From the IMG/VR virus record IMGVR_UViG_3300017776_000084, positions 1 through 32,168 of that record: DNA of 32,168 nucleotides. The stretch is one strand, 5' to 3'. The first letter of the stretch is position 1; each line of letters opens with the position of its first letter. Position numbers and translations under genes: made by a program. The DNA is from a virus. Shown here in pieces: positions 8,061 to 23,046 of this stretch. The notes under the pieces are model-generated. The model was not told the DNA's origin. It saw only the letters and a program-made list of their open reading frames with translations, and made no database searches.

Positions 8061-8372
8061 ATGAAAGAAGAATTTGATTATAGGTTAATCAACAGTGATC
8101 GCCATGCCGCCCGCTTTTCAATAAAACTGACAAGTGGATTATACAGCGGTGTAGTTTATGCATACGGAAATGTAAACCTCACCGAAGAAGAAGTGAACGG
8201 AGAGATGGTAGGGCGGTTAAGTTTTCTTTACGAAGTTGAAGAAGGAAACGAAGAATACACCAAAGAAGAGCTTGACTCAAACTCCGATTTTCAACGGCAC
8301 GTTGGACAAGTTCTTGAGTCTATTATAACAGAAAACGAATTTAAGATTGGACAGAATGACCCAGAAAATTGA
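8061..8372 (+). CDS. Small acidic protein between uvsX and gp41
   Basis: ATG 8061 (MKEEFDYRL) was chosen over an in-frame start at 8028, which would translate through the post-uvsX hairpin. The 103-residue acidic protein has a mixed alpha/beta pattern and no recognisable catalytic motif (RFSIKLTSGLYSGVVYAYG, then a Glu-rich middle). It ends at TGA 8372 inside the start of the helicase gene, overlapping it by 17 bases, so the two are probably co-translated. The position corresponds to T4 gene 40 between uvsX and 41, but I see no sequence reason to call it gp40. Confidence 0.7.
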   Translation: MKEEFDYRLINSDRHAARFSIKLTSGLYSGVVYAYGNVNLTEEEVNGEMVGRLSFLYEVEEGNEEYTKEELDSNSDFQRHVGQVLESIITENEFKIGQNDPEN

Positions 8373-9750: not shown

Positions 9751-9769
9751 GTGTTAAGTGGATAAAAAA

Positions 9770-9777
9770 TATAAATA
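9770..9777 (+). promoter_or_regulatory. T4-type late promoter box (first of two)
   Basis: An exact TATAAATA lies in the 49-base gap after the helicase gene, 16 bases before a second copy. This is the -10 element read by the gp55-type late sigma factor in T4-like phages. Predicted start is about 9783. Confidence 0.6.
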
Positions 9778-9785
9778 GTAATGTC

Positions 9786-9793
9786 TATAAATA
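9786..9793 (+). promoter_or_regulatory. T4-type late promoter box (second of two)
   Basis: An exact TATAAATA ends six bases before the ATG at 9800. A late start about six bases past the box would fall at or next to the ATG, giving an almost leaderless late transcript. Confidence 0.65.
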
Positions 9794-9799
9794 CTATCC

Positions 9800-11353
9800 A
9801 TGAGCACAAGCAACTTTAAAGATTTCATTAAAGAAGATATTTCAACAGGTTCACTTGATAAAGCCACCTTCTTAATTGCAAAATATCTCAAACGTAAAAC
9901 TGGATATTCATTTTTCCAGCTTCCAGGCATAGAGAAATTTTCAGGTGGTTCATCAGGTGGTGGATCTGGTATTCGATTGTTTTCTGGCAAAGGTAATATT
10001 AGTATTCGATTCAACTGGAAATCCAGTGGTCCTACTGCATCAAGCCTTTCTTCTATTGACATTTGGCTCAATAATAAGCAGCCTTTTTATCTCGAGTTTG
10101 AGAAAACAACTGGTCTAGTAAAAACCATTCCACTTGTTGCCAACATTATTAATGCTGGCGGCCCAACCAATAAAACCGTTTATACTTTACCCGATGGGGT
10201 ATCACTTAATGAACACATGGAGCCATCCTTCAGGTTTGTTCATCTTAACGAGGCCAAGGCTGCTATAGGCGACGTTGGTGGAATGTTTGACGACATTGTT
10301 GAAATGATGACCGACTCTGGCTTTTCAAAGGGGATGGTTTATAAAACATACAAAAGTGCTGGGGTTAAGGTTTTTGATGCGATTGTCGGTTTACATCCGA
10401 AGCTCATGCAAAAGAAAGGAACCGCATTTAAGTTTGTAGGTAAACCTGCAGACCTTGCTAAGGTTAAGAATTCAAAAGATGATATTCTACTTACAATCGG
10501 TTGTACAAAAGGAACTGTTAAGCGTGGATCTGCTGGTGAAAAATATGCTGATAACAGTAACGCCGATGCTCTTATGGCAGATCGTGACCGCATCAGCTTT
10601 GAGAAGCAACTTGAAGATTTAGAAAACCTTCTCAAACTAACTGTTAACGGCGCAGCCAATGCAATCTTTATTGCTGGTCGAGGTGGTGTTGGTAAAACAC
10701 ACACAACCGAAAAGGTTCTTGCTGACATGGGTCTGCGAGACGGATCAGGATACTTTAAGAACACTGGTAGTACAACTGCTGCAGGTATGTATTCTCTACT
10801 CTTTCGTTACAAGAACGATATCATTCTTTTTGATGATAGTGACGATGCCTTTAAGGATCAGGAAAGTAGAAACCTTCTCAAGGCTGCAACTGATACCAAA
10901 AAGATTCGGAAGCTCGTTTGGAACAAAATGGGTAAAAACGTTGTTGATCCTGAAGAGGATATCACGGACGAAGAAATGCTTGACCAAAATCTCATTCCTC
11001 GTTATTTTGAGTTTACTGGTAAGATCATTTTTATTACCAACCTTAAAATGCAAAAGCTGGATCCAGACGGTGCGCTAAGAACACGCGCATACATCATTGA
11101 CATTGATCCAACTGAAGCAGAGATTTATGACTTTATGGATCAGATTGTTGATAAGATTAAATTAGAAGACGGTCTGACCCTTGATTTGACAAAAAGGAAA
11201 AAGGTTGTGGATCTTCTTCGTAAAGGTAAGAGCAAGCAAGAACCAAACCTTCGTAAACTCAGCCGGGGACTGAATATGGCTGCAGGTGCTCTTTCTGCTG
11301 GGGTTGCTGTAAAAGACGGTGATCTCCGGCGAATGATTGAAACTTACGCGTAA
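9800..11353 (+). CDS. AAA-type ATPase with capsid-targeting-like N-terminus
   Basis: The 517-residue protein begins MSTSNFKDFIKED, similar to the leader of T4 internal head proteins with a possible prohead-protease site I-K-E. Residues 40-60 are a Gly/Ser-rich loop (SGGSSGGGSG), followed by a beta-rich domain. The C-terminal half is a P-loop ATPase: Walker A GRGGVGKT at 293-300, Walker B IILFDD at 341-346, a sensor-like IIFITN, and RTRAYIIDIDP in the arginine-finger area. Its cellular target is unknown. A double late promoter precedes it and a terminator follows. I infer a late, head-associated motor or remodelling ATPase; it is not one of the named T4 ATPases I can recognise. Confidence 0.7.
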   Translation: MSTSNFKDFIKEDISTGSLDKATFLIAKYLKRKTGYSFFQLPGIEKFSGGSSGGGSGIRLFSGKGNISIRFNWKSSGPTASSLSSIDIWLNNKQPFYLEFEKTTGLVKTIPLVANIINAGGPTNKTVYTLPDGVSLNEHMEPSFRFVHLNEAKAAIGDVGGMFDDIVEMMTDSGFSKGMVYKTYKSAGVKVFDAIVGLHPKLMQKKGTAFKFVGKPADLAKVKNSKDDILLTIGCTKGTVKRGSAGEKYADNSNADALMADRDRISFEKQLEDLENLLKLTVNGAANAIFIAGRGGVGKTHTTEKVLADMGLRDGSGYFKNTGSTTAAGMYSLLFRYKNDIILFDDSDDAFKDQESRNLLKAATDTKKIRKLVWNKMGKNVVDPEEDITDEEMLDQNLIPRYFEFTGKIIFITNLKMQKLDPDGALRTRAYIIDIDPTEAEIYDFMDQIVDKIKLEDGLTLDLTKRKKVVDLLRKGKSKQEPNLRKLSRGLNMAAGALSAGVAVKDGDLRRMIETYA

Positions 11354-11361
11354 TTAAGTGG

Positions 11362-11389
11362 AAAAAGGAGGATTAAAACCCTTCTTTTT
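11362..11389 (+). terminator. Intrinsic terminator after the ATPase gene
   Basis: A ten-base stem (AAAAAGGAGG at 11362-11371 with CCTTCTTTTT at 11380-11389, one G-T pair) encloses an A/T loop and ends in a run of five T. It separates the late ATPase gene from a new promoter at 11400. The GGAGG inside it is stem sequence and not a ribosome site. Confidence 0.75.
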
Positions 11390-11399
11390 GATTATATTA

Positions 11400-11428
11400 T
11401 TTACATTTATCATAAAATAGTTTATAAT
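11400..11428 (+). promoter_or_regulatory. Host-type promoter for the metallopeptidase gene
   Basis: TTTACA is at 11400-11405 and TATAAT at 11423-11428, with a 17-base spacer. Predicted start is about 11435, eight bases before ATG 11443. Confidence 0.8.
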
Positions 11429-11442
11429 AATTAATAGTAAAA

Positions 11443-11892
11443 ATGATAGACAAAACTTTACGAATATATGGCTGCAAAGACAAGCCAGACCTGAGAGACG
11501 ATATTCGTGAAGCGTCTAAGTTTTTCATTAACAAGCTGATTCCTCGAAAAAGGATACTTCACATTGCTGTTAAAAGAAGAAAGAATCTTATCAAGAACAG
11601 CGGAACATACGGGGAGTGTTGGCACCTTGATGAACCAAACTGTTTTGAAATATTGGTCGACGCAGACCTTTCTAAAAAGCAAACTCTTACAACCTTGGCT
11701 CATGAATTTGTTCACGTAAAACAATTCTGCCGTAGAGAACTTAAATTCGGTCACAAGATTGATACTTGGTGTGGTAAAAAGTATTACCACGGTGCAGCTT
11801 ATGAATCCCTGCCATGGGAAAAGGAAGCAACCCGACTGGAGACGGTTTTATACGAAGAATTCAAGGTGCATAAAAATAACAATAAAGTATAA
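11443..11892 (+). CDS. Small HExxH zinc metallopeptidase-like protein
   Basis: The 149-residue protein has the zinc-peptidase motif H87-E-F-V-H91 in TTLAHEFVHVKQF, with PWEKEA at 125-130 downstream offering the third-ligand or helix Glu usual in SprT/gluzincin-like phage peptidases. It is basic overall and has no signal peptide or membrane segment, so it should act in the cytoplasm of the host or in the virion. It has its own host-type promoter and lies between two late genes, while a terminator before it isolates it from the ATPase gene. The target is unknown. Its stop overlaps the next gene's late promoter box. Confidence 0.8.
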   Translation: MIDKTLRIYGCKDKPDLRDDIREASKFFINKLIPRKRILHIAVKRRKNLIKNSGTYGECWHLDEPNCFEILVDADLSKKQTLTTLAHEFVHVKQFCRRELKFGHKIDTWCGKKYYHGAAYESLPWEKEATRLETVLYEEFKVHKNNNKV

Positions 11893-11895
11893 ATA
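11888..11895 (+). promoter_or_regulatory. T4-type late promoter box
   Basis: An exact TATAAATA spans the stop codon of the metallopeptidase gene. Its end is five bases from ATG 11901, so the predicted late transcript starts at the ATG. Confidence 0.65.
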
Positions 11896-11900
11896 GTATT

Positions 11901-12995
11901 ATGAAAAGATTTAAGGAATTTTTATCAGAAGCTTATTCTTTCTTTCCAAAATCGGTCGAAGAAATAGAAACTGAGTTAAAGGATTTTTCTACTGATAGCC
12001 AAAATGAAATTAAAGCGCTGTTTACTTTCCTTAGGACAAAGTATCCAAGCGTTTATACTCCTATCAATATTGATAAAAAGAAACAGAATAACGTTAATGT
12101 TACACGCGAACTTCAATCGGAAACCGAGATATCTGATATTGTTTCTGGAGCCGGTATTAAAAAAATTAAGCTCAAGTTCGGTAATGGATCATCCGGTAAT
12201 CGCGGTGTAAATAATCGTGGTAATATATTTGAAGGCGCGTTTGCAAATGCCATAACTACATGGTGGAACGGCGAAGAAGTTGAAAATAAAAGTATGCTTG
12301 CCGCTATTAAAGACCTTGATAAAACATATAAGCTTAGTGATTCAAGTAAGCTAGATGTTAATGTTGTTGGTGGTGAAAACACCAAACGCCCTCTTAAATT
12401 TGGTCCAACCATTATTTTAGATAACCCAAAAGGATCTGGATTCGATATTGGTAAATCAGTTACAGATGTTACACTAGTTACTGATAATCGCGAAATTTAT
12501 CTCAGCCTTAAGTTAGGTACAACTACTACATTCTTCAACGTGGGTGTAAGAAGGATTCTAACTCCAGATCAGATTAAATCCAGTAAGATTACTAATAAAG
12601 ACGGCTTAAATCTCCTTAGCATCTTTGGCATTGACCCTGTCAAATTTTCAGAAGTATTTAATGGTACCAGTAAGGGTAGTGTTGATACTAGAGCAAAGGT
12701 GGATTCCAACAAAATAGAAAAGTTGTTGCAATCAGGAATAGGTTATAACTATCACATCATCCACAAAATGTCAAAGGGAATTCTTTCAAAAGAAATGAAT
12801 CAATCTGCAATGAAGAAAGCAGCAAAGATCGCTGGTGGCGTTACAGTTTATTATGGTGGTAAAACCGGTCGAGGTAAACGCGTTGATGTAGAATTCAAAT
12901 CAGCTTCATATAAATTTAAAATCAACATTAGAGATACCCAAGGTAAAGATGGATACCCGACTCGTATGATGTGTGATTTTACTACAATTAAGTGA
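11901..12995 (+). CDS. Late protein with capsid-targeting-like leader and nuclease-like core
   Basis: The 364-residue protein begins MKRFKEFLSEAYS, which matches the T4 internal-protein leader form with a cleavage site L-S-E before Ala11. The middle shows a pattern consistent with a PD-(D/E)XK fold: NRGNIFEGAF with Glu111, then SVTDVTLVTDNREIYLSLK with Asp189 and Lys204 on adjacent strands. The following FFNVGVRR and a Lys/Arg-rich C-terminus (GKTGRGKRVDVEF) fit DNA binding. Catalysis is not proven; the acidic residue before Lys is replaced by Ser202. I infer a head-packaged nuclease-like or DNA-binding protein. An alternative is an unrelated structural protein. Confidence 0.55.
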   Translation: MKRFKEFLSEAYSFFPKSVEEIETELKDFSTDSQNEIKALFTFLRTKYPSVYTPINIDKKKQNNVNVTRELQSETEISDIVSGAGIKKIKLKFGNGSSGNRGVNNRGNIFEGAFANAITTWWNGEEVENKSMLAAIKDLDKTYKLSDSSKLDVNVVGGENTKRPLKFGPTIILDNPKGSGFDIGKSVTDVTLVTDNREIYLSLKLGTTTTFFNVGVRRILTPDQIKSSKITNKDGLNLLSIFGIDPVKFSEVFNGTSKGSVDTRAKVDSNKIEKLLQSGIGYNYHIIHKMSKGILSKEMNQSAMKKAAKIAGGVTVYYGGKTGRGKRVDVEFKSASYKFKINIRDTQGKDGYPTRMMCDFTTIK

Positions 12996-13001
12996 GAAAT
13001 C

Positions 13002-13526
13002 ATGAACCAAGAAATAGAGCAGGCATTACAATTTCACAAGGACAATAACATTCCAATTTCGGAAAACATTTTCCGTCCTCACACAGAAAATTATTACGCT
13101 CTTTTTCGCGCAGCCCGTTCGTTAAAAGAAGATCTTGATCTTACCTCCTTTGATCGCCATTTGCTCTCAACAGACATTGGCGAGTTTGGTATTTACGAAG
13201 GAGAAGAAGTTCCACTCGACCATCCCTTTATTGCCGAAGCTGAATATAAAGGAAAAGAGGTTGAGTTGGATACCCCCAAGCGAGGCGGTAAAAAGAAATA
13301 CTTTGTTTACGTTAAGAACGATAAAGGTAAAGTAGTTAAAGTTGAATGGGGAGATACAAGTGGTCTTACCGCTAAGATTTCTGATAAAGCTGCTGCTGCA
13401 TCCTTTGCCGCTCGTCACCGCTGTCATTTAAAGAAAGACAGAACAACCCCCGGTTGGTGGGCTTGTAATATGCCCCGCTATGCTAAAGACCTTGGCTTAA
13501 AAGGAGGCGGAAACTTTTTTTGGTAA
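13002..13526 (+). CDS. Conserved phage protein with C-terminal RHRC...WWAC motif, 174 aa
   Basis: The N-terminal half (residues 1-80) is helical and acidic. From about residue 84 a compact domain starts (YKGKEVELDTPKRGGKKKYF), continues through VVKVEWGDTSG and ends ASFAARHRCHLKKDR then TPGWWACNMPRY. This C-terminal domain recurs, from memory, in many marine phage proteins as a small basic domain with Cys and Trp at fixed places. Its role is unknown to me. A putative cleavage site for the prohead protease is not obvious. Six bases separate it from the previous gene, and it shares that late unit. Confidence 0.65.
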   Translation: MNQEIEQALQFHKDNNIPISENIFRPHTENYYALFRAARSLKEDLDLTSFDRHLLSTDIGEFGIYEGEEVPLDHPFIAEAEYKGKEVELDTPKRGGKKKYFVYVKNDKGKVVKVEWGDTSGLTAKISDKAAAASFAARHRCHLKKDRTTPGWWACNMPRYAKDLGLKGGGNFFW

Positions 13527-13538
13527 AACTATAAACCA

Positions 13539-13546
13539 TATAAATA
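13539..13546 (+). promoter_or_regulatory. T4-type late promoter box
   Basis: An exact TATAAATA lies in the 45-base gap before ATG 13572. The predicted start, about 13552, leaves a 20-base leader. Confidence 0.6.
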
Positions 13547-13571
13547 GAATCAATCTAATCTTTATATTAAA

Positions 13572-14717
13572 ATGAAAGAATCTTATAACAGAGACCCATT
13601 AATTCAAACTGCTGAAGGCTTAATGCTAACTGAAGATGTTGCTAAAATTAAAAAGAAAGTGGCGCAGCTTAAAGTTGGTGATAAAACAAACTTTGGAGCA
13701 GTACTTGATATTGGCGACGAACATATTACATTTAAAGCTCCACAAACGCCTAAAACCAAAATTCTTTTTCGTCAGAGGGCATTGGGTAGGTCTGCCTACC
13801 TACTAATGAATCTTGTCAAGTATACTCCAGATGGTAAGAAACTTGACAAGACATTCAAAGAAGCCAACGATTTTACTGGAGCTGCTGCCGCAGCTGCCGT
13901 GGCTGGAGAAGATGAATTTGAATTTAATGGTAAAACATATCCAGTTGAGATGGATTTAGAGGTTGCTAAAAAGATTATGTCCCAATCACTGAAGCTTGCA
14001 AAACAACTTGCAAAGGACATGGAAGAAGACACGGATTTTATTGAAAGTAACGAGTTTGTTGGCGCAGCTGCCGCAGCCAAGGTTGCTGGTAAAGATGAAT
14101 TTGAATTCAATGGTAAAACATATCCTGTTGAAATTAGTCAAGAGACCGCTGAAAAGATTATGTCTCAAGCTATTGACCTTGCTAAAGATCTTGCAAAGGC
14201 TAAGAAAGAGGAGTCCACCGATCTTGAAGAAGAGACGGGCTCATTAAAAAATTCACTAAAGGTTCTTGCTAAAGCTGGAATCAGAGGTCGTCTAGTAAGT
14301 GATATGCCAAAGTTTGCTAAAGCCATTCGTAAAAATTACAAAGCTATTACTGGTGAAAAATATCAAGATGGGGATCAAGTTGCCATGAGCGAAATCATTG
14401 CAGATCTTATTGGCCACTTTAGAATAGATGGAGATGAATTCATTACTGCTTGGGATAGTACCATTAGAGAAGGCGCCGAACTTGAAGAATCAGAACACGG
14501 TGAATGGTTTACCGCTGAAATGAAGGTTAAGTCCAGTGGGCAGCTTTACTCAACCTTTTATGTTCAAGCCAAAGACATAGGCCAAGCAAATAAAAAGGCT
14601 GAAAAGGTATTTAAAGAATTGATGAAAACATCCTACCCCAAGGATTGGCCAACTTACTCAAAGAAGTTTACCCTTAAGGTCGTAAAGGGTGATAACATGG
14701 GTGAGCTGATGCCGTAA
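13572..14717 (+). CDS. Multi-domain late protein with tandem Ala-rich repeat
   Basis: The 381-residue protein has a basic N-terminal region (1-97) with a candidate protease site L-T-E at 19-21. Two tandem copies of a 61-residue unit follow, each beginning F-x-G-A5-6 and containing DEFEFNGKTYPVE and an EKIMSQ-type helix. After DLEE at 207-210 comes a helical module (about 215-300) with GEKYQDGDQV, and after ELEE at 303-306 a C-terminal alpha/beta module (WFTAEMKVKSSGQLYSTFYV) to the end. The LEE sites between modules look like prohead-protease sites. No enzyme motif is visible. A head or core-associated role is inferred from late promoter, context and sites. Confidence 0.6.
   Translation: MKESYNRDPLIQTAEGLMLTEDVAKIKKKVAQLKVGDKTNFGAVLDIGDEHITFKAPQTPKTKILFRQRALGRSAYLLMNLVKYTPDGKKLDKTFKEANDFTGAAAAAAVAGEDEFEFNGKTYPVEMDLEVAKKIMSQSLKLAKQLAKDMEEDTDFIESNEFVGAAAAAKVAGKDEFEFNGKTYPVEISQETAEKIMSQAIDLAKDLAKAKKEESTDLEEETGSLKNSLKVLAKAGIRGRLVSDMPKFAKAIRKNYKAITGEKYQDGDQVAMSEIIADLIGHFRIDGDEFITAWDSTIREGAELEESEHGEWFTAEMKVKSSGQLYSTFYVQAKDIGQANKKAEKVFKELMKTSYPKDWPTYSKKFTLKVVKGDNMGELMP
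13866..14204 (+). repeat. Two-copy tandem repeat within the Ala-rich protein gene
   Basis: Unit 1 covers about 13866-14021 (residues 99-150) and unit 2 about 14049-14204 (residues 160-211), with a 183-base period. The core DNA GATGAATTTGAATT followed by ATGGTAAAACATATCC is almost unchanged between copies, while flanks differ mostly at third positions. This indicates an in-frame duplication kept under selection. Confidence 0.85.
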
Positions 14718-14738
14718 TAGGAAATACAGATAAGCAAT

Positions 14739-16550
14739 ATGCAACCCTATACAGATCAAGAGAAAGAAGGTAAAAAGATTAGAACCTTTTCCGCAGGCGT
14801 GGAAAATGAAGAACTTATTTGGCATAGGGATAAGACGCACCGTGAAGTAACGGTTGCTGAAGGAACAGGTTGGTTCTTTCAACTAGATGAAAGTGTTCCT
14901 TTTGAATTAAAGAAGGGCCAATCACTTTCAATTCCCAAGATGGAATGGCATCGGTTGTTTAAGAAAGGCGATTCAGACCTTGTACTTGAAATTGTTGAAT
15001 CATATATACCTTCTTTTAAAAACATTGTTGAAGCTCCCAAACTTTCTAAAGGTTATGGTGCAGGTTTAGGCGACTCAACCAAAGACAAGCGTCGGGCCCA
15101 GTTTAATAAGCAGGCTAAAATGGATGACGACGATCCCGCTGCTTATAAACCTGCACCTGGAGATGCAAGAGGTAAAACCAAACCAAGTAAATATACAAAG
15201 GCCTATAAGGACATGTTTGGTGAGAAGGTTGAATACTATTCAATGCCAGAACTCAAAAAGCAGTTGAAAAAAGAATATGGCTCAGAGGCTTCTTCTCTCA
15301 AGATTGTAAAGGTTAAAGGCCGGGGTCGAACCCAGAGTGTATCTATCCAAACACCATCCGGTCAAGAACTAGATAGATATAATAATGTACCTGGGTTGGG
15401 CTACACACTTGCTGAAGACACAGAAGACACAAAAGGAATAGGCACTGACGGACTGGCAAAAAATTACAAAAAGATTACTCCAGGCCAAAGCGTTGAAGAA
15501 AAACTGGACCCTAAAAAAGACGATGCAGGGGATTATATCAAAGACTTTATGAAGTCAGATGCTCCTCAGTTTAAAGGGAAGTCTAAAGAAAAGATACGCC
15601 AAATGGCCGTTGCCGCTTACCTTGACGATAAGGATGCGCTAACAGAAAAAACCATTAAAGGTCTTGAAAAGAAAGCTGACGAATCTGGTGTTGCATACGA
15701 CATCTTAAAGAAAGTATACGACCGAGGAATGGCTGCTTGGAGAACTGGCCACCGCCCAGGGACTACTCCACAGCAATGGGCTTTTGCTCGCGTTAATTCC
15801 TTTCTCACTGGCGGTACAACTCAAAAGACAACCGATGCTGACCTTTGGAAAAAACACAAAGGTAAAAAGGAATCTGTTGAGTTGGAAGAAAAGGAAATCT
15901 CTGAGGCGAAGCACATGAAGTTTAATAAAAGAACTTTGCTCCGCACTATGAAAAAGCCTGAAGGGGTTATTCAAACAAGCGATGGTGGTCAGTATACAAT
16001 TTATCGACCAAAGCAAACCAAACAGGGTTTCAACACCAGTGATTTGTGGCAAGATAAATCCATCATTGCTTTACCTATTCCGGCTTGGCCAGGTGGAGAA
16101 GTTGAGATTAATTACGATGATATCACTCAATACAGCGAGACGTATCACGAAGAATCACTTAAGCCAACTCCAGCGTTAAAACAAAAACTGATAGAGGTTG
16201 CCGGACTTACTTCCGCAACCGCGGAAAAGATTTTGGCTCTGCCGCAACCAATGCTGACCACAGTTATTAACCAACTTCTTACAGCTGAGGTTCACCATGA
16301 AGATACATCCAACAATGAAGTTGATCTCATTCTTGAACGAGGTAAAACATATATCTTAAAGCAAGATAGAGATGATTACGACAGGGGTGTATTGGTAACC
16401 ATGAATGAAGACGGCAGCTATGAAATGGCTTATTGGGTTGGAGATAAATATGAACCTTACCCTATTGAAATGCTTGTTGACGGAAAGTCCATAAAGAAGG
16501 ATGGACGAATTGCAAAGTTTAATTACCACCCTACAGTACCTAAAACATGA
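14739..16550 (+). CDS. Cupin-led multi-domain late protein, possible polyprotein
   Basis: The 603-residue protein is a chain of small modules. Residues 1-90 look like a cupin: ELIWHRDKTHREVTVAEG and later PKMEWHRLF supply the two conserved strands with His. IVE98-A ends this module. Residues 100-165 contain GKTKPSKYTKAYKDMFGE; 165-222 is a basic alpha/beta module; LAE226-D follows. Residues 250-372 match a DUF5824-like domain (WRTGHRPGTTPQQWAFARVN). ISE389-A comes next, then a module at 391-470 that is paralogous to part of the protein encoded at 21973-23046, a helix-hairpin-helix-like stretch (480-515), and an SH3-like end (532-595). The [I/L]-x-E sites fall between modules, as if processed by the prohead protease. 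It has no leader peptide of the MKSF type. The 4-base overlap with the next gene suggests coupling. Confidence 0.6.
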   Translation: MQPYTDQEKEGKKIRTFSAGVENEELIWHRDKTHREVTVAEGTGWFFQLDESVPFELKKGQSLSIPKMEWHRLFKKGDSDLVLEIVESYIPSFKNIVEAPKLSKGYGAGLGDSTKDKRRAQFNKQAKMDDDDPAAYKPAPGDARGKTKPSKYTKAYKDMFGEKVEYYSMPELKKQLKKEYGSEASSLKIVKVKGRGRTQSVSIQTPSGQELDRYNNVPGLGYTLAEDTEDTKGIGTDGLAKNYKKITPGQSVEEKLDPKKDDAGDYIKDFMKSDAPQFKGKSKEKIRQMAVAAYLDDKDALTEKTIKGLEKKADESGVAYDILKKVYDRGMAAWRTGHRPGTTPQQWAFARVNSFLTGGTTQKTTDADLWKKHKGKKESVELEEKEISEAKHMKFNKRTLLRTMKKPEGVIQTSDGGQYTIYRPKQTKQGFNTSDLWQDKSIIALPIPAWPGGEVEINYDDITQYSETYHEESLKPTPALKQKLIEVAGLTSATAEKILALPQPMLTTVINQLLTAEVHHEDTSNNEVDLILERGKTYILKQDRDDYDRGVLVTMNEDGSYEMAYWVGDKYEPYPIEMLVDGKSIKKDGRIAKFNYHPTVPKT

Positions 16551-17323
16551 AATCATTTAGTTCTTATATTGAAGATATTGCGAGGTTAATTCAAGAAGCT
16601 GAGACACCGTGTCCTCCTGCAACCCAGGATCTTGCAATTAATACAAAGAATCGCGATGCAACAATAAAGAACTATAACTATGGCCCGTTGAATGTATCAG
16701 AGCCAGGGACGTATTGGAAAGACATTGCTAAGTATTGGAAAACAACAGAGAAAGCTGCAAAGGCATCACTTTGCGCTAACTGCGTTGCGTTTGATATATC
16801 CCCAAGAATGCTCGAATGTATGCCGGGTGTAACATCTGATGAAGATGGCGTTCTAGGTTATTGCTGGATGCATCATTTCAAGTGTCACTCTGCCAGAGCC
16901 TGTCATACATGGGCTAAAGGTGGTCCTATTGATAAGGATGATGTTTCTCATGAATGGGCTAAGCGCGCTGGTGAACCTTATTATAAAGAAGCCACGGAAA
17001 GAATTCCTCGCGAAAAAGGTCAACACACTGGTTCGTCTTCTCACTCTGATTTATATACAGACGAAGATCCTGAAGGAACAATTCACGGGCTAGGTTTTAA
17101 AGATCCTGAGACTGCAAAGAAAGGAATTGCTATTATAGATAAAGCTGATAGAACCCACGCTCATAAAGTTCAAGCTACACTGGTTATGCAGCAAAGAGCA
17201 AAGGTTGCTATTGAAAGAACCAAGGATCCCGAAAAGAAAGCAAACCTTAAAGGTGCTTATGATATTTGGACAGACCATTTAGAGAAGCTGAAAAAAATTA
17301 CTCAGCAGAAAAACCAATCTTAA
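16547..17323 (+). CDS. HiPIP-like Cys-rich late protein with capsid-targeting-like leader
   Basis: The 258-residue protein begins MKSFSSYIEDIARLIQEAE, a leader with a candidate cleavage site I-Q-E17 before Ala18. Residues 40-125 hold C76-A-N-C79, C91, C106, then C113 and C119 in GYCWMHHFKCHSARACHTW. The CANC start and the 2-11-14 spacing resemble high-potential iron-sulfur proteins, although a zinc site is also possible. The C-terminal region (about 150-258) begins HTGSSSHSDLYTDE, continues GLGFKDPETAKKGIAIIDK and is a helical repeat-like module rich in Lys. Start ATG overlaps the previous stop. I infer a metal-binding, head-associated protein; redox activity is untested. Confidence 0.6.
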   Translation: MKSFSSYIEDIARLIQEAETPCPPATQDLAINTKNRDATIKNYNYGPLNVSEPGTYWKDIAKYWKTTEKAAKASLCANCVAFDISPRMLECMPGVTSDEDGVLGYCWMHHFKCHSARACHTWAKGGPIDKDDVSHEWAKRAGEPYYKEATERIPREKGQHTGSSSHSDLYTDEDPEGTIHGLGFKDPETAKKGIAIIDKADRTHAHKVQATLVMQQRAKVAIERTKDPEKKANLKGAYDIWTDHLEKLKKITQQKNQS

Positions 17324-17327
17324 ACCC

Positions 17328-18434
17328 ATGCAAGACTTTGAAAAATCATACGACAATTTAGCTGAAGCTGCTAAAGATATCTTTAATCGTAATGCACGTA
17401 AGATGCGCGGTAAGATTGAAGAAGAAGAACATCAAACGATTAGTGTTGTAGCACCAAACTCTCAAGCTTATGAAGTAGATGGTATTGGCAATGCTGACTT
17501 GAATCTTGTTCGTGGAGGAAAGTATGTTTTTGAAGTAGATGCAACAGGACATCCGTTTTACATTAAGACAGATAAGACCGGTGGCGAAGGTGATCAATAC
17601 ACGGATGGTGTAACCAATAACGGACTTGAAAAAGGAACACTTGAATTTGAAGTTCCTGCTGATGCTCCAGATACTCTTTACTATGTTTGCGCATATCATC
17701 CAGTTATGGTTGGTACTCTTAACATTACTGATACCGCCGAGATTGAAGAAGGTACAGAGTTTGTAAAAGGCGATGTCGTTATGGATGTCAGAACAAAGCT
17801 CAAGGGAACAGTCCTGCACAAAGGTAATAAAGACGACGTCTTTGTAAAGTTTGGAAGTATTACTAAAGGTATTTCTGGAAAAAACCTTCGTCTTGTCGAA
17901 TCCATCGAACTTGAAGAGGCAGTAAATCTTCAAAGTGGTTTCGGTTTTAGAGGAACCGTTGATATCGGTGGTATAGATTACAAGACCCAACTTGATCGCG
18001 TTGTTAAACTAATTAAAAAGACACGCATTCTCAAGTCCGATAAAGATATTATAGAGTTCTTGGAGAGCGGAATGGGTAGGGAACTCGGAGAAATCATTGT
18101 TGGTCAACACTCCAGACTTAGTCCCTCTGCTCGTAAAAACGATGCACCCCTTGTGTTATTCTTAAAGAAGCAGCTTCCTATTTGGGATTCACTGGGAGAA
18201 GACACCGATCTTGAAGAAGGAACTGGTAAGTATAAAGGAGAAACTTGGGAACAAGGATTCGAGCGCAGGGTTATTAAAACTACCAAACCCGAGCACATTG
18301 AAAAAGGTTTCAAGTGGCGTATCAAAGGTAAAGAACGCGACGAGATTTCTATCAAGCTTTATAAAAACAAGCCCGACTTTAAAGAATTTACAAAGCAAAT
18401 GAAGCGGGTTGCCGGACATGAGTTCGGTGGATAA
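17328..18434 (+). CDS. Cupredoxin-like (blue copper) multi-domain late protein
   Basis: The 368-residue protein starts MQDFEKSYDNLAEAAKD, with a candidate protease site L-A-E13. Residues about 36-136 form a plastocyanin-like domain: GHPFYIKT with His75, then YYVCAYHPVMVGTLNI with Cys121, His124 and Met127. These are the four residues expected of a type 1 copper site. A site I-E-E141-G follows. Residues 142-190 look SH3/KOW-like (KGDVVMDVRTKLKGTV). LEE197-A, a helical module to 290, LEE297-G and a short basic C-terminal module complete it. A copper electron-transfer domain in a late phage protein is unusual. Whether copper binds, and whether the sites are cut, is inference. Confidence 0.65.
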   Translation: MQDFEKSYDNLAEAAKDIFNRNARKMRGKIEEEEHQTISVVAPNSQAYEVDGIGNADLNLVRGGKYVFEVDATGHPFYIKTDKTGGEGDQYTDGVTNNGLEKGTLEFEVPADAPDTLYYVCAYHPVMVGTLNITDTAEIEEGTEFVKGDVVMDVRTKLKGTVLHKGNKDDVFVKFGSITKGISGKNLRLVESIELEEAVNLQSGFGFRGTVDIGGIDYKTQLDRVVKLIKKTRILKSDKDIIEFLESGMGRELGEIIVGQHSRLSPSARKNDAPLVLFLKKQLPIWDSLGEDTDLEEGTGKYKGETWEQGFERRVIKTTKPEHIEKGFKWRIKGKERDEISIKLYKNKPDFKEFTKQMKRVAGHEFGG

Positions 18435-18449
18435 ATTTTAATCACCACT

Positions 18450-19865
18450 ATGGAATCATTCAAAACTTATTCTTATTTAGATGAAGAGGCTATCAAGCCT
18501 GACACGTTAAAGCTATTGGTTTTAACTTCTGCTAAAGAAGGCGAAGAACCTACAATCAATAAACTTGAAGATATTTGCGCTAAGAAAAAAATTAAACTGT
18601 ATAGAATTGTATCGGATAAAGCATATGCGTCCAAAAAGGACGAGCAAAAAGAAACACTAGTCATTCATAACTACGATGGCCAAGGGGAAAGTTTGGAAAT
18701 TGACCGCAATGAAGATGTGGTATGTATAGCTCGGAGAACGGTGGTTACAAATAGAAACGCCGCCGTTTTACATTCAATGTTGGCAGATCACGGAGTGTTT
18801 TGTATTAACTCCCCTCAAAGTGTAAAGACCGCAAGTAATAAATTTAGTTCTTACATTAACTTTGTCAACGATAACGTTCCCACTCCCAAAACGTGTTTGG
18901 TTACAGATATTGAATACATCGACAAAGGTATTGAAGAAGTTGGTGGAAAGTTCCCTCTTATCTTAAAGTTTACTGAAGGTCACGGCGGTAAGGGAGTTAT
19001 GAAACTTGAAACCAGGGAAAGCCTGGTGTCAGTTATACAAGCAATTCAAGCTGAGCCTGAAAGCAACGTTGAATTAATACTTCAAGAGCTTAAAAAGATT
19101 AAAGACGATAGAAGAATTCTTGTATTAAACGGTCAAGTTATTGCGGCAAGTAAACGTAAAAAGATGGCTGATGACTTTCGTACAAACGTTTCTCTGGGTT
19201 CTGACGTAGAGCCACACAAGCCGAACGATAAAGAAATGGAACTCGCGGTGAGAGCTGCTAAGTCTGTGGGTTGTTATTACTGCGGCGTTGATATTATTCA
19301 AGTCGATGGTGAGTATTTTGTTTTGGAGGTTAACCCTTCACCAGGGTCTAAATCAAATTACTTTGATGTGGAAAAACAAAAAGTTATAAACGGAACTGCA
19401 CTGGTTCGTAAACTTGTTGACAGTACACTTGAGAAAGAGAACTGGACTTACGAGACCAAAGAGGTCGGCGTTATAGAATACATGAAGATTTTAGACGACG
19501 ACTTTAAACTCATGACCGCTAAAATGGATACGGGTAATGGTTCGGTAAACTCTATTGGTGTTACTGATTTAAAGATAAAAGGAAACGTTGCTGAGTTTTA
19601 TATTCAAGACACCAAACACAAACTTACAAAAGAGATATTACCTAAGACTTCCGTTATTAAAGTACGAGGTGATAAAGGCAATCCTGAAAGACGGCCGGTT
19701 GTAATGTTTGATGTTAAGCTGGGCAACAGGGTTTATAGAGATGTTAAGTTTTCCTTAGCCGATAGAAATAATATGGACCACCCGATTTTGGTATCTGCTA
19801 AATTTATGGCCGCTTGCAAGTTAAGCGTTAATCCTAATAAAGAGTTTGTTTGCTGTATGCCATAA
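18450..19865 (+). CDS. ATP-grasp (RimK-like) and retropepsin-like (RimB-like) fusion
   Basis: The 471-residue protein begins MESFKTYSYLDEEA, a head-leader-like start with L-D-E12. Residues about 90-325 form an ATP-grasp ligase: LILKFTEGHGGKGVMKL at 170-186 (Gly-rich ATP loop, Lys173), LILQELKKIKDDRRI near 209, and VDGEYFVLEVNPSPG with the metal-binding Glu293 and Asn295. RimK-type enzymes add amino acids, often Glu, to protein C-termini. Residues about 340-471 match the RimB-like retropepsin family: AKMDTGNGS with Asp360-Thr-Gly, ERRPVVMFDV, and FSLADRNNMDHPILVSAKF. Paired ligase and protease in one chain suggests attachment and removal of a peptide tag. It is a late gene; the substrate is unknown. 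Confidence 0.75.
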   Translation: MESFKTYSYLDEEAIKPDTLKLLVLTSAKEGEEPTINKLEDICAKKKIKLYRIVSDKAYASKKDEQKETLVIHNYDGQGESLEIDRNEDVVCIARRTVVTNRNAAVLHSMLADHGVFCINSPQSVKTASNKFSSYINFVNDNVPTPKTCLVTDIEYIDKGIEEVGGKFPLILKFTEGHGGKGVMKLETRESLVSVIQAIQAEPESNVELILQELKKIKDDRRILVLNGQVIAASKRKKMADDFRTNVSLGSDVEPHKPNDKEMELAVRAAKSVGCYYCGVDIIQVDGEYFVLEVNPSPGSKSNYFDVEKQKVINGTALVRKLVDSTLEKENWTYETKEVGVIEYMKILDDDFKLMTAKMDTGNGSVNSIGVTDLKIKGNVAEFYIQDTKHKLTKEILPKTSVIKVRGDKGNPERRPVVMFDVKLGNRVYRDVKFSLADRNNMDHPILVSAKFMAACKLSVNPNKEFVCCMP

Positions 19866-19868
19866 ATA
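19861..19868 (+). promoter_or_regulatory. Possible late promoter box (one mismatch)
   Basis: CATAAATA differs from TATAAATA at the first base and ends 12 bases before ATG 19881. It overlaps the stop of the previous gene. The placement mirrors the exact boxes before other late-module genes, but the mismatch lowers confidence. Confidence 0.35.
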
Positions 19869-19880
19869 AATTACAACACA

Positions 19881-21116
19881 ATGAAATCATTTAAGACATA
19901 TATCACCGAAGCTTCGGGAAAGAATACCCACATGACGCATATTGAAGATGCGGTATTATACGGTGGAGTTAAAGGAGCAAAGGAAGCAATTACCGCGCTG
20001 CGTTCGTTAAGAGACATGCTTGCAGGAAATGCAAAGAGCAGCAGTGATGTTACTGTCAAATGGGATGGTGCTCCTGCAGTGTTTGCTGGTATTGATCCAA
20101 CCGATGGCCAATTCTTTGTTGCTAAAAAAGGTATCTTTAATAAAGATCCAAAGGTATACAAATCTGAAGCAGATGTTAAAGCTGATACCAGTGGCGATCT
20201 GCAAGCAAAGTTGATTGTTGCTTTTAATGAACTTTCCAAACTTGGAATTAAAGGTGTCTTGCAAGGTGACATGATGTATACCAAATCGGATCTTAAACCA
20301 CAAAAGATCAACGGTGTTCCTTATATTACTTTCCAGCCAAACACGATTGTTTATGCTGTTCCTGCCAATACTCCTGGTGGTAAAAAGATTAAAAGTTCAA
20401 AGATGGGTATCGTATTTCACACATCCTATTCAGGTACTTCATTCGAGAATATGAAGGCTTCGTTTAACGTTGACATTAGTTCCTTGAAACCTACTTCAAC
20501 TGTTTGGTATCAAGATGCACGAACTCCTGACCTTAGCGGTACTGCATTAATGGATGCAGACGAAACCAAAGAAGTTACAGCCGCCCTTTCAAAGGCTGGT
20601 AAGATTTTCCAAAAGATTGCGGGCTCAACCCTTAAAGCGATTGAAGCTGATCCACAACTTGCACAAACCCTTGAAACTTATAACAACACGTTTGTTCGTA
20701 AAACTGAAGAGTTACCTGCTGATTCGAAGAAACACGTTGATGGTCTTATAAAGTGGTCCACAGAGCGCTATAAAAAAGAGCGCACTCAACGTAAAAGCGA
20801 AAGAGGCAAAGAAGGTGTGAATAAACGAGAAGAAGAATTTATGAAGTTCTTCTCCAAAGAAAATAAGACTAACCTTGCTTTGATCTACGACCTTCAGAAG
20901 GCTATTGTTGCCGCCAAGCTTATCATCATTAAGAAGCTTGACTCTCTTAAAAAGATTAATACATTTATTCGTACCAAGAACGGGTTTAAAGTTACGGGTC
21001 AAGAAGGGTTTGTTGCAATCGACAAAACAGGCGGGGGCGCGGTTAAACTCGTTGATCGTCTCGAGTTCTCTACAAACAATTTCAGTCCTGACGTACTTAA
21101 AGGTTGGGACCATTAA
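19881..21116 (+). CDS. Ligase-like nucleotidyltransferase (DUF6267-like) with capsid-targeting-like leader
   Basis: The 411-residue protein starts MKSFKTYITEASGKN, the closest match here to the T4 internal-protein leader, with a site I-T-E10 before Ala11. A nucleotidyltransferase pattern follows: K60-W-D-G63 (motif I KxDG with candidate adenylated Lys), FFVAKKGIFN, GVLQGDMMY, KMGIVFHTSY, and C-terminal EGFVAIDKTGG then AVKLVDRLEF in the places of motifs IV and V. This is the layout of ATP-dependent DNA and RNA ligases. From memory it matches a family annotated DUF6267 in marine phages. A ligase or end-adenylating enzyme carried in the head is the inference; the substrate is unknown. Confidence 0.7.
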   Translation: MKSFKTYITEASGKNTHMTHIEDAVLYGGVKGAKEAITALRSLRDMLAGNAKSSSDVTVKWDGAPAVFAGIDPTDGQFFVAKKGIFNKDPKVYKSEADVKADTSGDLQAKLIVAFNELSKLGIKGVLQGDMMYTKSDLKPQKINGVPYITFQPNTIVYAVPANTPGGKKIKSSKMGIVFHTSYSGTSFENMKASFNVDISSLKPTSTVWYQDARTPDLSGTALMDADETKEVTAALSKAGKIFQKIAGSTLKAIEADPQLAQTLETYNNTFVRKTEELPADSKKHVDGLIKWSTERYKKERTQRKSERGKEGVNKREEEFMKFFSKENKTNLALIYDLQKAIVAAKLIIIKKLDSLKKINTFIRTKNGFKVTGQEGFVAIDKTGGGAVKLVDRLEFSTNNFSPDVLKGWDH

Positions 21117-21121
21117 ACCAC

Positions 21122-21129
21122 TATAAATA
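21122..21129 (+). promoter_or_regulatory. T4-type late promoter box
   Basis: An exact TATAAATA lies in the 23-base gap before ATG 21140. The predicted start of about 21135 gives a five-base leader. Confidence 0.62.
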
Positions 21130-21139
21130 CAGTTAGTAA

Positions 21140-21955
21140 ATGAAATCATTTAAGCAATTTAAAGAAGAAACTGTAAAAGAATTGGTTGTCACCTTTGGGC
21201 GATTTAATCCTCCTACCGTAGGACATGGAAAGCTATTAAAGAAAGTTTCTAATTTAGCAAAAGGAGCTGATTATAGAATCTATTCTTCGCAATCAATTGA
21301 TCCTAAAAAGAACCCTCTTAAGTATACAGATAAGGTAAAGTTTTTAAGGAAGATGTTTCCTGAACATGGAAGAAACATTATTCTGGACAAGGGTGTTAAA
21401 AGTCTTTTTGATGTGGCGGATAAAGCGCATTCAGATGGTTACAACAAGCTAACAATTGTTGTTGGCAGTGATCGCGTTCCTGAGTTTAGAGCCTTGATTC
21501 CAAAGTATAACGGTGTTAAAGGTCGCCACGGATTTTACGATTTTGAATATGGCATTGAAGTTAAAAGTGCGGGTGAACGCGATCCTGACTCAGATGATGC
21601 TGTAGAGGCCATGAGCGCAAGTAAGTTGCGAGCGGCAGCAGAAGATAACGATTTAAAAACCTTTTCTCTAGGTATGCCTAAGAACTTCCGTGGGGTTACT
21701 GATCTCATGAATGCTGTTCGCAAAGGAATGGGACTAAAGGAATCAACAAATTTTAGAAAGCACGTTGAACTTGAAACAAATCAAGTGCGTGAACAGTATA
21801 TCTCTGGCTCAATCTTCAATATTGGAGACACCGTGTTTAATAAAAAGGACGAGCAGGAATACACCATCACTGAAAGATTTGCAAATCATGTCTCAATTAA
21901 AAACGATCGAACCACAAGTAAAGCATTTATTCAAGACTTAACTGTAATAAATTGA
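21140..21955 (+). CDS. NMNAT/cytidylyltransferase-like nucleotidyltransferase with SH3-like tail
   Basis: The 271-residue protein begins MKSFKQFKEE, sharing the first 14 bases of its gene with two other late genes. The HxGH-family nucleotidyltransferase motif appears as GRFNPPTVGHGKLL at about 21-34 (Thr for the first His, as is common), and the second motif as EAMSASKLRAAAEDND, with the S-x-S-x-L-R form. T4-like marine phages carry this gene as a putative cytidylyltransferase. Residues 218-271 add a small beta domain (SIFNIGDTVFNKKDEQEYTI). It may transfer a nucleotide to a small phosphate such as NMN; the substrate cannot be told. The leader suggests packaging, although no clear [I/L]-x-E site is present. 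Confidence 0.8.
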   Translation: MKSFKQFKEETVKELVVTFGRFNPPTVGHGKLLKKVSNLAKGADYRIYSSQSIDPKKNPLKYTDKVKFLRKMFPEHGRNIILDKGVKSLFDVADKAHSDGYNKLTIVVGSDRVPEFRALIPKYNGVKGRHGFYDFEYGIEVKSAGERDPDSDDAVEAMSASKLRAAAEDNDLKTFSLGMPKNFRGVTDLMNAVRKGMGLKESTNFRKHVELETNQVREQYISGSIFNIGDTVFNKKDEQEYTITERFANHVSIKNDRTTSKAFIQDLTVIN

Positions 21956-21970
21956 TAAATAGTATAAATC
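21954..21970 (+). promoter_or_regulatory. Possible overlapping late promoter boxes
   Basis: GATAAATA (21954-21961) and TATAAATC (21963-21970) are each one base off TATAAATA and lie just before ATG 21973. The first overlaps the stop of the previous gene. One or both may serve the next gene. Confidence 0.4.
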
Positions 21971-21972
21971 AT

Positions 21973-23046
21973 ATGAAAACATTAAAAGAAATACTTAACG
22001 AATCTGCCCACGACTCGTCAATAGAAAAGCAAAACGATAACATTGATGCGAAAGCTGATGAAGGTTCTTCTAAAGATCTTAAGGCTATTTCTGCAGGAAT
22101 GTTTACTAAAAGAACTTTGATCCGCTCCATGAAGCACTCTGAAGGTGTTATTCAATTGGCCAGTGGTAAACAATATACAATTTTTAATCCAAAGTCTGAA
22201 GATCAGGACACTGAAGGAATGTTCCAAGATGATATGGTTTTTGCAATTGATGCTGATGGTAACGAAGTTAAAGTTGAATACAAAGAAATCACTTCTTACA
22301 ACGAAACATACCACGAAGATGAAGCTGGTGCTCCTCGAAGAATGACTTACGATGATGCACACCAGCCCAAAACTAAAATGGAGCTGATGGCTGCCGTAAA
22401 GAGAGAACTTCGTAGCATGAAGGTTGCTGATGTAAAAGCTTCTTACCAGTATATTAAAGCTGCCCATTGTAATACTAGAGAAAGTATGCACGGAATGGGA
22501 ACAAAGAAGGATACGTTAATGGCAATGATGAAGGATCTTAAAGGCATGAAAGCAAGTGCCCTTAGAGCTTCTTACGAGTACATTAAAGCTTCTCATTGCG
22601 GACCTAGAGAAGGTGCTCACGAAGATGAGATGGTTAATGCTGGTGCTCATCGCGATGATCTGAAACATCCTAAGCCACAGCCAGTGATGGCAAGCCACTG
22701 CACAGAAGAAACCGAAATTACTGAAGCGATTAACTTTAGTAAAGTCCCTGATGATCAATTGATTAAATGGATTAAAGTACTCGGATTGGCTAAAAACAAA
22801 CCTAAGGCACCTTGGACCGATTATCCACAAGATATGGCTGCTGCTGAAAAAGAAGCTAAAAAACGTAGGCTTACGTTTGAAGCTGTTGAGCTTGAAGAGA
22901 TGAAGACCAAAGATGACGACCTTGCGGTTATGATCTACGACTACATCGGCGCAGACACTGAAGGACTTCCTTTGAAGACGCTTATCATGCAGGCCGTTGG
23001 TAAATACTTTGGCTCTCAAAAAGTTGACGGCCCAGTTGGAGGTTAA
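21973..23046 (+). CDS. Multi-domain late protein with capsid-targeting-like leader and helical repeats
   Basis: ATG 21973 (MKTLKEILNESAHD) was chosen over an upstream TTG because it gives a head-leader-like start with L-N-E10 before Ser11. Residues about 41-116 are a module paralogous to residues 391-470 of the protein encoded at 14739-16550: both have FTKRTL or FNKRTL, then EGVIQ, QYTI, an acidic insert, YNETYHE or YSETYHE. Residues 136-171 and 180-214 are two copies of a helical unit ending in Y-I-K-A-x-H-C. IT-E251-A and LEE309 mark further possible cuts before C-terminal modules. The 357-residue protein has no enzyme motif. The gene is late, and a stable hairpin follows it. Confidence 0.6.
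   Translation: MKTLKEILNESAHDSSIEKQNDNIDAKADEGSSKDLKAISAGMFTKRTLIRSMKHSEGVIQLASGKQYTIFNPKSEDQDTEGMFQDDMVFAIDADGNEVKVEYKEITSYNETYHEDEAGAPRRMTYDDAHQPKTKMELMAAVKRELRSMKVADVKASYQYIKAAHCNTRESMHGMGTKKDTLMAMMKDLKGMKASALRASYEYIKASHCGPREGAHEDEMVNAGAHRDDLKHPKPQPVMASHCTEETEITEAINFSKVPDDQLIKWIKVLGLAKNKPKAPWTDYPQDMAAAEKEAKKRRLTFEAVELEEMKTKDDDLAVMIYDYIGADTEGLPLKTLIMQAVGKYFGSQKVDGPVGG
22378..22614 (+). repeat. Two-copy helical repeat in the gene at 21973
   Basis: Units encode residues 136-171 and 180-214. Each has L-M-A, a KxL-xxMK core and a C-terminal A-S-Y-x-Y-I-K-A-x-H-C-x-x-R-E. The match is clear in protein and weaker in DNA, indicating an older duplication than that in the gene at 13572. Confidence 0.75.

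Follow-up and report, generated by a model that had tools for sequence, protein, structure and literature searches.

A predicted late cargo block with capsid-targeting-type leaders in a marine T4-like phage

The gene block and its leaders

The DNA analysed here (the window) is a 32,168-nt IMG/VR virus record (IMGVR_UViG_3300017776_000084, positions 1 to 32,168). Gene order in the window runs from uvsX- and gp41-type genes through a block of 12 genes at 9800-23046 to ribonucleotide reductase genes, and a comparable order is found around the DUF6267 gene in most annotated relatives inspected. A first-pass annotation had proposed that eight products of this block begin with a short N-terminal leader like that of T4 internal proteins, and that they make up an injected enzyme kit. 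The block contains the following features.

9770-9777 and 9786-9793, + strand: two boxes of the T4 late-promoter type (TATAAATA) ahead of the first leader gene, present in 6/6 homologues of 9800
9800-11353, + strand: leader MSTSNFKDFIKE (9800-9835) and an AAA-type ATPase (PF13191, below cutoff)
11443: metallopeptidase-like gene with no clear leader, a separate gene in the block
11888-11895, + strand: late-promoter box TATAAATA before 11901, exact in 34/48 homologue upstream regions
11901-12995, + strand: leader MKRFKEFLSE (11901-11930) and a nuclease predicted, from a model, to be of PD-(D/E)XK type with a HinP1I/MspI-type fold
13002-13526, + strand: leaderless short-module protein (phrog_7595); a look-alike module is fused to DUF6267 in L044, L060 and L061
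13539-13546, + strand: late-promoter box TATAAATA before 13572
13572-14717, + strand: multi-module protein with STDLEE and GAELEE linkers and no clear leader
14739-16550, + strand: leaderless protein with a cupin at its start (below cutoff), DUF5824, further modules and an ESVELEE linker
16547-17323, + strand: leader-like MKSFSSYIED...LIQEA and a cysteine-rich protein of no family
17328-18434, + strand: leader MQDFEKSYDNLAEAAKDIFNR and a domain shared with PHROG tail proteins; ELEE/DLEE linkers
18450-19865, + strand: leader and a RimK-family glutamate ligase fused to a RimB/RloA-like peptidase domain
19881-21116, + strand: leader MKSFKTYITE (19881-19910) and DUF6267
21122-21129, + strand: late-promoter box TATAAATA before 21140, kept in 3/93 homologues and thus not conserved
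21140-21955, + strand: leader MKSFKQFKEE and a cytidylyltransferase/NMNAT-like protein with homologues in purified cyanophage virions
21973-23046, + strand: leader MKTLKEILNE (21973-22002) and a multi-module protein with an AVELEE linker and a stretch resembling one in 14739

All eight proposed leader products are present as open frames in the window; that of 21973 starts at an inner ATG of the open reading frame (ORF) 21952-23046. Their leaders read MSTSNFKDFIKED (9800), MKRFKEFLSEA (11901), MKSFSSYIEDIARLIQEAE (16547), MQDFEKSYDNLAEAA (17328), MESFKTYSYLDEEA (18450), MKSFKTYITEA (19881), MKSFKQFKEET (21140) and MKTLKEILNES (21973). A leader profile was built from the residues before the DUF6267 domain in IMG/VR homologues. 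The extraction pattern was passed by 77/80 DUF6267 loci, and the 57 distinct leaders among these 77 were used for training, with the window excluded and the first column unscored. The profile was run on the first residues of 39 window genes (a gene list of our choosing), and ranks 1-8 are exactly the eight named genes. Seven of the 39 lie above the 99% quantile of shuffled N-termini, compared with 0.39 expected; 16547 is the one of the eight that falls short (p = 0.013). Because 19881 is kin to the training set, the independent evidence is 6/38 genes. The profile hits unrelated bodies, including ATPase, nuclease-fold, ATP-grasp and NMNAT-like products, and four of the 12 block genes (11443, 13002, 13572 and 14739) have no clear leader. 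The ranks and the 1% null confirm that the eight products share a leader.

T4 gp21 cleaves after L/I-x-E, and in the T4 leader residues 4 and 7 serve targeting while residues 8 and 10 serve processing (PMC9026906). The exact T4 register (hydrophobic residues at 4 and 7, I/L at 8, E at 10) occurs only in 11901, 19881 and 21973. It is shifted in 9800 and 18450 and is departed from in 16547 (Asp10), 21140 (Lys8) and 17328 (another leader type), so the proposed likeness to T4 internal proteins holds exactly for three products but is shifted or deviating in the other five. In a control segment of 25 T4 genes, IPII and IPIII rank first and second in the profile; their scores are modest, and a lambda tail gene comes almost as high (6.07 against 6.01). 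Across all genes, 7/219 in S-CREM2 (2.19 expected) and 4/218 in S-SZBM1 (2.18 expected) lie above the 99% threshold, that of S-CREM2 being its own. Given these modest control scores and whole-genome counts, rank inside a gene block is informative and a lone moderate score is not.

Two side observations concern the profile. In C48C1, all six profile-positive products among 178 called ORFs lie within one 11 kb stretch at 57-69 kb (L179, L180), which includes DUF6267 and a cytidylyltransferase. The window product at 29841-30323 carries a strong leader-like string, SLYKTLTEA, in its C-terminal part (profile score 16.7), possibly by chance or as a C-terminal propeptide.

Matches of the window proteins are T4-like phages, and the DUF6267 product of 19881 has 58% identity in C48C1, 48% in Methylophilales phage Melnitz, 46% in Stenotrophomonas phage DLP6 and 38% in Pelagibacter phage HTVC008M. 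A megablast search of window positions 1-25000 against phage records gave no match, and close relatives were drawn from IMG/VR only. One contig (G001; locus L098, also L248-L251; 71,730 bases) has 99.7% identity to window positions 1-13332 and runs ~58 kb further upstream, with head, tail and replication genes; PHROG families are matched by its portal, prohead protease, scaffold and major head protein. G001 appears to be the same virus as the window, and this virus is a marine T4-like phage outside the T-even group. For IMG/VR loci, C48C1, Melnitz, DLP6 and HTVC008M the first start after a stop was taken as the start codon, by which some leaders were missed or misplaced. Further downstream, at 30982-31653, the window holds a gene for a ClpP-like protease, which matches PHROG families of two kinds, ATP-dependent proteases and head maturation proteases.

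Conservation of leaders, cut site and late promoters

Leaders were counted in distinct homologues aligned near the N-terminus, with N-termini identical over 40 residues counted once. A leader at p < 0.01 is present in 5/6 homologues of 9800, 2/3 of 17328, 4/5 of 18450, 77/95 of 19881 (a partly circular count) and 64/92 of 21140 (largely from the same loci). Counts for 11901, 16547 and 21973 are 11/46, 1/4 and 2/3 (25, 3 and 3 at p < 0.05). Homologues of neighbouring genes rarely have one: RecA 1/38 (6 at p < 0.05), helicase 0/52, 8028 0/32, 11443 0/36, 13002 3/26, 14739 0/29, 23101 1/6, 24195 0/33, 24578 0/30, 25638 0/8 and 26644 0/12. Conservation among homologues is therefore mostly favourable to the first-pass proposal. 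The tripeptide [ILV]xE lies 3-7 residues before the DUF6267 domain in 77/77 homologues, and E10 of the DUF6267 leader is invariant in 23 rows. Leaderless cyanophage versions start at the domain itself (P-HM2 MSKNTHLEHLED, S-SZBM1 MAKNTHLEHLED, S-PM2 MATQNKHLEHLED).

A shared N-terminus could have another cause, for example the context of translation initiation, a chaperone used in common or joint inheritance of the sequence, and this would suit leaders that are short, variable in match strength and missing from a third of the block genes. Two fusions (L035, L043) nevertheless keep the leader peptide internally, between a leaderless cupin and DUF6267. Since the junction there lacks ATG, GTG and TTG codons alike, what is conserved is the peptide and not a start codon. 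With genes around the block rarely bearing the leader, and the leader fitting the residues mapped in T4, we give such a cause the lowest probability of the explanations considered.

The predicted cut site was examined in 11901, where the conserved body of homologues begins [AM]YxFFP. Among 80 loci, 71 fit this body-start pattern and nine gave none. In 47/71 (27 distinct) [ILV]xE stands immediately before the body, and in 24/71 (14 distinct) a start codon does (21 ATG, one GTG, two TTG), two of these 24 having a further possible start upstream; no readable homologue (0/71) has neither. Many of the 47 have residues ahead of LxE that are unlike the 19881-type leader, and LxE is nonetheless kept. 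Because [ILV]xE or a start codon directly precedes the body in 71/71 homologues, the predicted cut appears to be a real boundary. Residues 1-9 are of low confidence in the structure model of 11901 (predicted local distance difference test, pLDDT, under 50). A gp21-type protease (PF03420) scores over cutoff in 10/11 records searched, including G001, with lambda as the negative. In the G001 major head protein (phrog_138) the string FLTE ends at residue 55; T4 gp23, which has a propeptide of 65 residues (PMC9026906), has this string too, ending at residue 65. On these sequence grounds, prohead cleavage after [I/L]xE is likely.

Between its portal and protease genes, G001 encodes a 138-residue product with no PHROG match (start MSDFHKSYDSLAQAAEAIFNR), which is by its position a putative prohead-core protein. 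The start of 17328 (MQDFEKSYDNLAEAAKDIFNR) is identical to it at 15/21 residues, and 17328 therefore apparently has a core-type leader and not one of the internal-protein type.

Exact TATAAATA boxes in the window begin at 9770, 9786, 11888, 13539, 21122 and 24524, with six on the + strand and none on the - strand; 2.08 are expected, and 3/100 shuffles reach six. Late promoters are NATAAATA in S-PM2 and TATAAATA in T4 (PMC2984593). Boxes were counted in homologues within -70 to +30 of the start, with identical upstream regions counted once. They precede 6/6 homologues of 9800 and 34/48 of 11901, compared with 0/36 for RecA, 0/53 for the helicase, 1/29 for 8028, 3/31 for 24195, 8/31 for 24578, 5/101 for 19881 and 3/93 for 21140. 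Late promoters had been proposed before five of the eight leader genes. The boxes and the near-matches at 19861 and 21954/21963 are real in the window, but clear conservation is confined to 9800 and 11901; the box before 13572 (13539) is an addition to that annotation. Conservation at these two genes only suggests that the late signal lies at the start of the block; its transcript may extend into the genes downstream. Late expression of the block is suggested by these motifs. Beyond the block, the box at 24524-24531 stands before 24578, a leaderless product of no assigned function, and is the one with a counterpart in 8/31 homologues.

Virion proteomes of relatives and the cargo proteins

In S-CREM2, 52/219 products were detected in virions by mass spectrometry (MS) (PMC10665884). 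A strict leader pattern was fixed before the S-CREM2 N-termini were viewed, and was widened by M and F before use on S-SZBM1. Four of its six matches in S-CREM2 were detected, compared with 48/213 other products (Fisher p = 0.029): gp6 (SAM hydrolase), gp13, gp14 (kinase) and gp154 (cytidylyltransferase). Also among the detected products is the Cas9-like gp12, in which residues 17-26 read LRFASFMAEA; detected proteins have the higher profile scores (p = 0.004). A loose pattern, any [ILV]xE near the N-terminus, gave no separation in S-CREM2 (13/41 matches detected, p = 0.22), so a bare LxE is uninformative. The S-CRM01 kinase is reported second-hand to be in virions (PMC10665884).

The homologue of 21140 was detected in virions of four relatives, and all four of these NMNATs have a leader. 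They are those of S-SZBM1 (MRFRQFIIEA; identified in the MS table through its length, 362; PMC9146016), S-SCSM1 (QFG06348; starting MKSFLQFLKEA; PMC9602691), S-SM1 (T4-GC 190; starting MKKFSAFLNEA; PMC3037559) and S-CREM2. A leader is also found on the Syn9 NMNAT (MKKFSAFLSEA). The leaderless DUF6267 product of S-SZBM1 is outside the 30 detected products of that phage. In S-PM2 the NMNAT domain follows DUF6267 sequence and has no such leader, and this protein was undetected in an earlier study according to PMC3037559. Virion proteomics of relatives, in which a lack of these proteins would speak against the proposal, is thus mostly favourable to it. As a separate observation, genes 89 to 93 around the S-SCSM1 NMNAT (86357-91835; L252) are labelled virion proteins in the record; a classical leader is present only in 91, and 89 starts MDSKTFNSLSEAYAAV.

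The bodies behind the leaders were compared with family and structure databases. For 9800 there is a weak AAA_16 match below cutoff. The model of 11901 has a mean pLDDT of 87.2, and VIA-align matched it to HinP1I (Z 9.6, 200 aligned, 4.1 Å) and MspI (Z 8.5, 204 aligned, 4.4 Å), where unrelated models reach Z 7 to 8; the next matches were Hjc resolvases and HhaI (Z 5 to 6). We take all of these to be PD-(D/E)XK nucleases. D189, S202 and K204 are invariant in 36 rows and by our assignment form a candidate D...(E/Q/N)xK-type site. A Foldseek search with the model gave no significant match, and no homologue of 11901 was found in C48C1, Melnitz, DLP6, HTVC008M or P-HM2. A restriction-endonuclease-type (PD-(D/E)XK) fold is predicted for this product on the basis of the model.

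Product 18450 is above the curated cutoff for the RimK family (TIGR00768, 161.7 bits compared with 143.4), and its C-terminus matches PF05618 (43.2 compared with 27) and contains a DTG motif; against the RimB NCBIfam model NF052261 the C-terminus scored 25.9 bits, below the cutoff of 200. By these sequence matches it is a RimK-RimB-like fusion. Bacterial RimK and RimB act on ribosomal protein S6. Product 19881 belongs to DUF6267 (PF19782, 332.2 bits compared with a gathering score of 27), with K60, D62, G63, E375, G376 and K389 invariant in 29 sequences (KxDG and EG...K motifs). The likeness to ligase motifs (KxDG, EG, K) is our reading of invariant columns; the AlphaFold model is poor (mean pLDDT 70.2), and Foldseek and a profile search against solved structures gave nothing significant for DUF6267 as a ligase. 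Product 21140 is cytidylyltransferase/NMNAT-like by family searches, with no match among PDB sequences at 0.01. Neither 16547 nor 21973 has a family in PHROG/Pfam/NCBIfam-type scans, no Pfam, NCBIfam or PDB-sequence match was found for 16547 as a HiPIP, and PADLOC returned nothing for five products. Among the enzyme labels first given to the block, those of nuclease fold, ATP-grasp/protease and nucleotidyltransferase have support of varying strength; the AAA ATPase match is below cutoff. The HiPIP-like (16547) and ligase-like (19881) labels are unproven for want of a family or structure match, although the KxDG and EG...K residues of 19881 are invariant.

Leaders also occur with adapter modules and in fusions. 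A leader and a module of ~45 residues are common to the S-SCSM1 NMNAT and the S-CREM2 kinase gp14 (E = 1e-8) and to the Syn9 NMNAT and gp14 (8e-9), and the module alone is common to S-CREM2 gp12 and gp14 (2e-8); these E-values are pairwise and without composition correction. In gp14 (L009) the leader-linked module is seemingly present twice. The order in L044, L060 and L061 is leader, small module, SILEA and DUF6267. Single fusions are found in L035, L037, L040, L043, L044, L060, L061 and L066, several of them near-copies of one another; L037 and L040 have an inner Met and possibly a separate start. The phrog_455 profile spans both DUF6267 and the cytidylyltransferase, so a fusion of these two exists as well. 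In S-SZBM1, gp082 (L014) is a 707-residue product encoded between terminase genes with an internal leader-like FITYREFIAEG, and the stretch after it resembles S-CREM2 gp6 by eye.

Possible internal cut sites were counted as well. Homologues of the multi-module products contain 732 [ILV]xE[ASGEDNQ] sites compared with 360.4 expected (sd 16.5), and controls 628 compared with 584.3 (sd 22.5). Counted in the window, plain [IL]xE shows no significant excess inside the block (47 compared with 41.5, P = 0.19; elsewhere 77 compared with 64.6, P = 0.04), while [IL]xE followed by A/S/G/E/D/N/Q occurs 32 times in the block (17.0 expected) and 35 times elsewhere (27.3 expected, P = 0.10). The motif DLEE/ELEE occurs six times in the block (0.2 expected) and not at all elsewhere (0.4 expected); in relatives it is raised in control proteins (18 compared with 6.1) as well as in cargo-type proteins (27 compared with 3.1), and is therefore not cargo-specific.

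The excess of sites in multi-module homologues, about twice expectation, would also suit leaders that target transient core or scaffold components, which are cut up and gone before DNA packaging and deliver nothing enzymatic. T4 core proteins gp22 and gp67 are cut to fragments that mostly leave the head (PMC9026906), and 17328 has a leader in common with the G001 product from the interval between portal and protease, which is the place of the core genes in T4. However, leader-bearing enzymes are found in purified virions of relatives, and the ATP-grasp, nuclease-fold and NMNAT-like domains seem both intact and conserved, so we consider this account unlikely.

Proposed role and comparison with known systems

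We put the probability at about 0.8 that the block at 9800-23046 is a late cargo block, most of whose products carry capsid-targeting leaders, are cleaved, are kept in the head and are probably ejected. Several observations weigh against this. A proteome of this virus itself is not known to us; contigs are all that represents it here. Leaders are not in excess in HTVC008M (two compared with 1.9 expected) or DLP6 (one compared with 2.1). In S-CREM2, three virion proteins (gp155, gp156 and gp160) lack a clear leader, two products that fit the strict pattern (gp37 and gp175) went undetected, and gp6 reaches only p = 0.02 in the profile; the five proteins above a 99.5% profile threshold were all detected, but the hits in gp84 and gp123 look like chance, being away from the N-terminus. 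In S-SZBM1 only 1/5 leader-pattern products is among the 30 detected, gp084 and gp085 being undetected despite excellent leaders, and the profile does not rank the detected cytidylyltransferase, the leader of which is one residue short. Module boundaries at LxE were rejected as a general rule (9/23 boundary clusters within 12 residues, per-protein P of 0.06 to 0.83). As boundaries are no closer to LxE than random positions, cutting into separate enzymes should be taken as no more than a possibility. The S-SZBM1 count weakens the proteome argument, and the 71/71 count in 11901 homologues strengthens the cut-site argument.

The proteome authors themselves caution about co-purification. Together with the missing enrichment in S-SZBM1, this is what would be expected if detection reflected contamination by abundant proteins and the leader had a role in assembly only. 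The strict pattern is enriched among detected S-CREM2 products, however, and the same enzyme was detected in four phages in three or more papers; we therefore think contamination improbable, though not quite as improbable as a shared N-terminus of other origin.

On the cargo-block reading, the genes would form a late-expressed operon set among replication genes. The leader would bind the prohead core, and a gp21-type prohead protease would cut after [I/L/V]-x-E. Mature proteins would remain in the head with the DNA, and ejection into the host would probably follow. There, ahead of phage gene expression, the RimK-RimB-like, NMNAT-like, nuclease-fold and ATPase proteins may act. Sequence comparison and the published virion proteomes of relatives make head packaging and leader cleavage likely. 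For this virus in particular, we infer targeting and cutting, a single transcript for the block, injection and host targets. A broader reading is tentative, with the odds in our view against it: marine T4-like phages might share a general packaging code in which a portable leader, with or without an adapter module, loads changing enzymes. Cargo polyproteins might then be cut by the prohead protease at internal leaders or LxE linkers into injected enzymes, including a RimK-RimB-like pair possibly modifying host S6 at infection.

A sequence rule of this kind helps to predict virion-borne proteins of marine T4-like phages, and could explain how NMNAT-like enzymes, a kinase, a SAM hydrolase and a Cas9-like nuclease come to appear in cyanophage virion proteomes. 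It also makes the payload testable, as enzymes that would enter the host with the DNA and bear on events of the first minutes of infection.

Several known systems resemble the block. Polyvalent proteins and head-packaged effectors (PMC5512222, PMC9503650) are likewise enzymes or proteins of several domains for which entry into the host along with the DNA is predicted. In those systems processing is attributed to zincin-like peptidases and packaging to gene context or head-protein fusion, whereas the leaders and LxE here point to the prohead protease, and the domains differ. No zincin-like peptidase domain was reported inside the leader products scanned with Pfam, and the metallopeptidase-like gene at 11443 is separate. 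Cyanophage virion enzymes (NMNAT/cytidylyltransferase, kinase, SAM hydrolase, Cas9-like nuclease) share a homologous NMNAT and, in the genes read, the same kind of leader; no leader is described in the available parts of the proteome papers. Among the literature matches listed (open-access; titles and abstract openings) there was no description of capsid-targeting leaders on marine-phage enzymes. T4 Alt, an injected ADP-ribosyltransferase, is similarly a head-packaged enzyme with a short propeptide cut by gp21, but its leader differs, and no ADP-ribosyltransferase family turned up among the scanned block products.

The T4 and T-even internal proteins (Ip1, Ip2, Ip3 and more) share with the products of this block an N-terminal leader of 10 residues, hydrophobic at positions 4 and 7 and with I/L at 8 and E at 10, as well as a gp21-type protease and unrelated bodies behind one leader. 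Genes of T-even phages were found through the capsid-targeting signal, and a review of T4 head assembly (PMC9026906) suggested that this signal may allow T4-like phages to package a variety of proteins. The internal proteins differ in that their cargo is small inhibitors of type IV restriction enzymes, whereas the cargo here consists of larger enzymes and multi-module proteins, encoded beside uvsX- and gp41-type genes and in some relatives with the leader inside fusions. The mechanism is that of T4 internal proteins; its scope, with large enzymes, fusions and marine phages, is new as far as the searched literature reaches.

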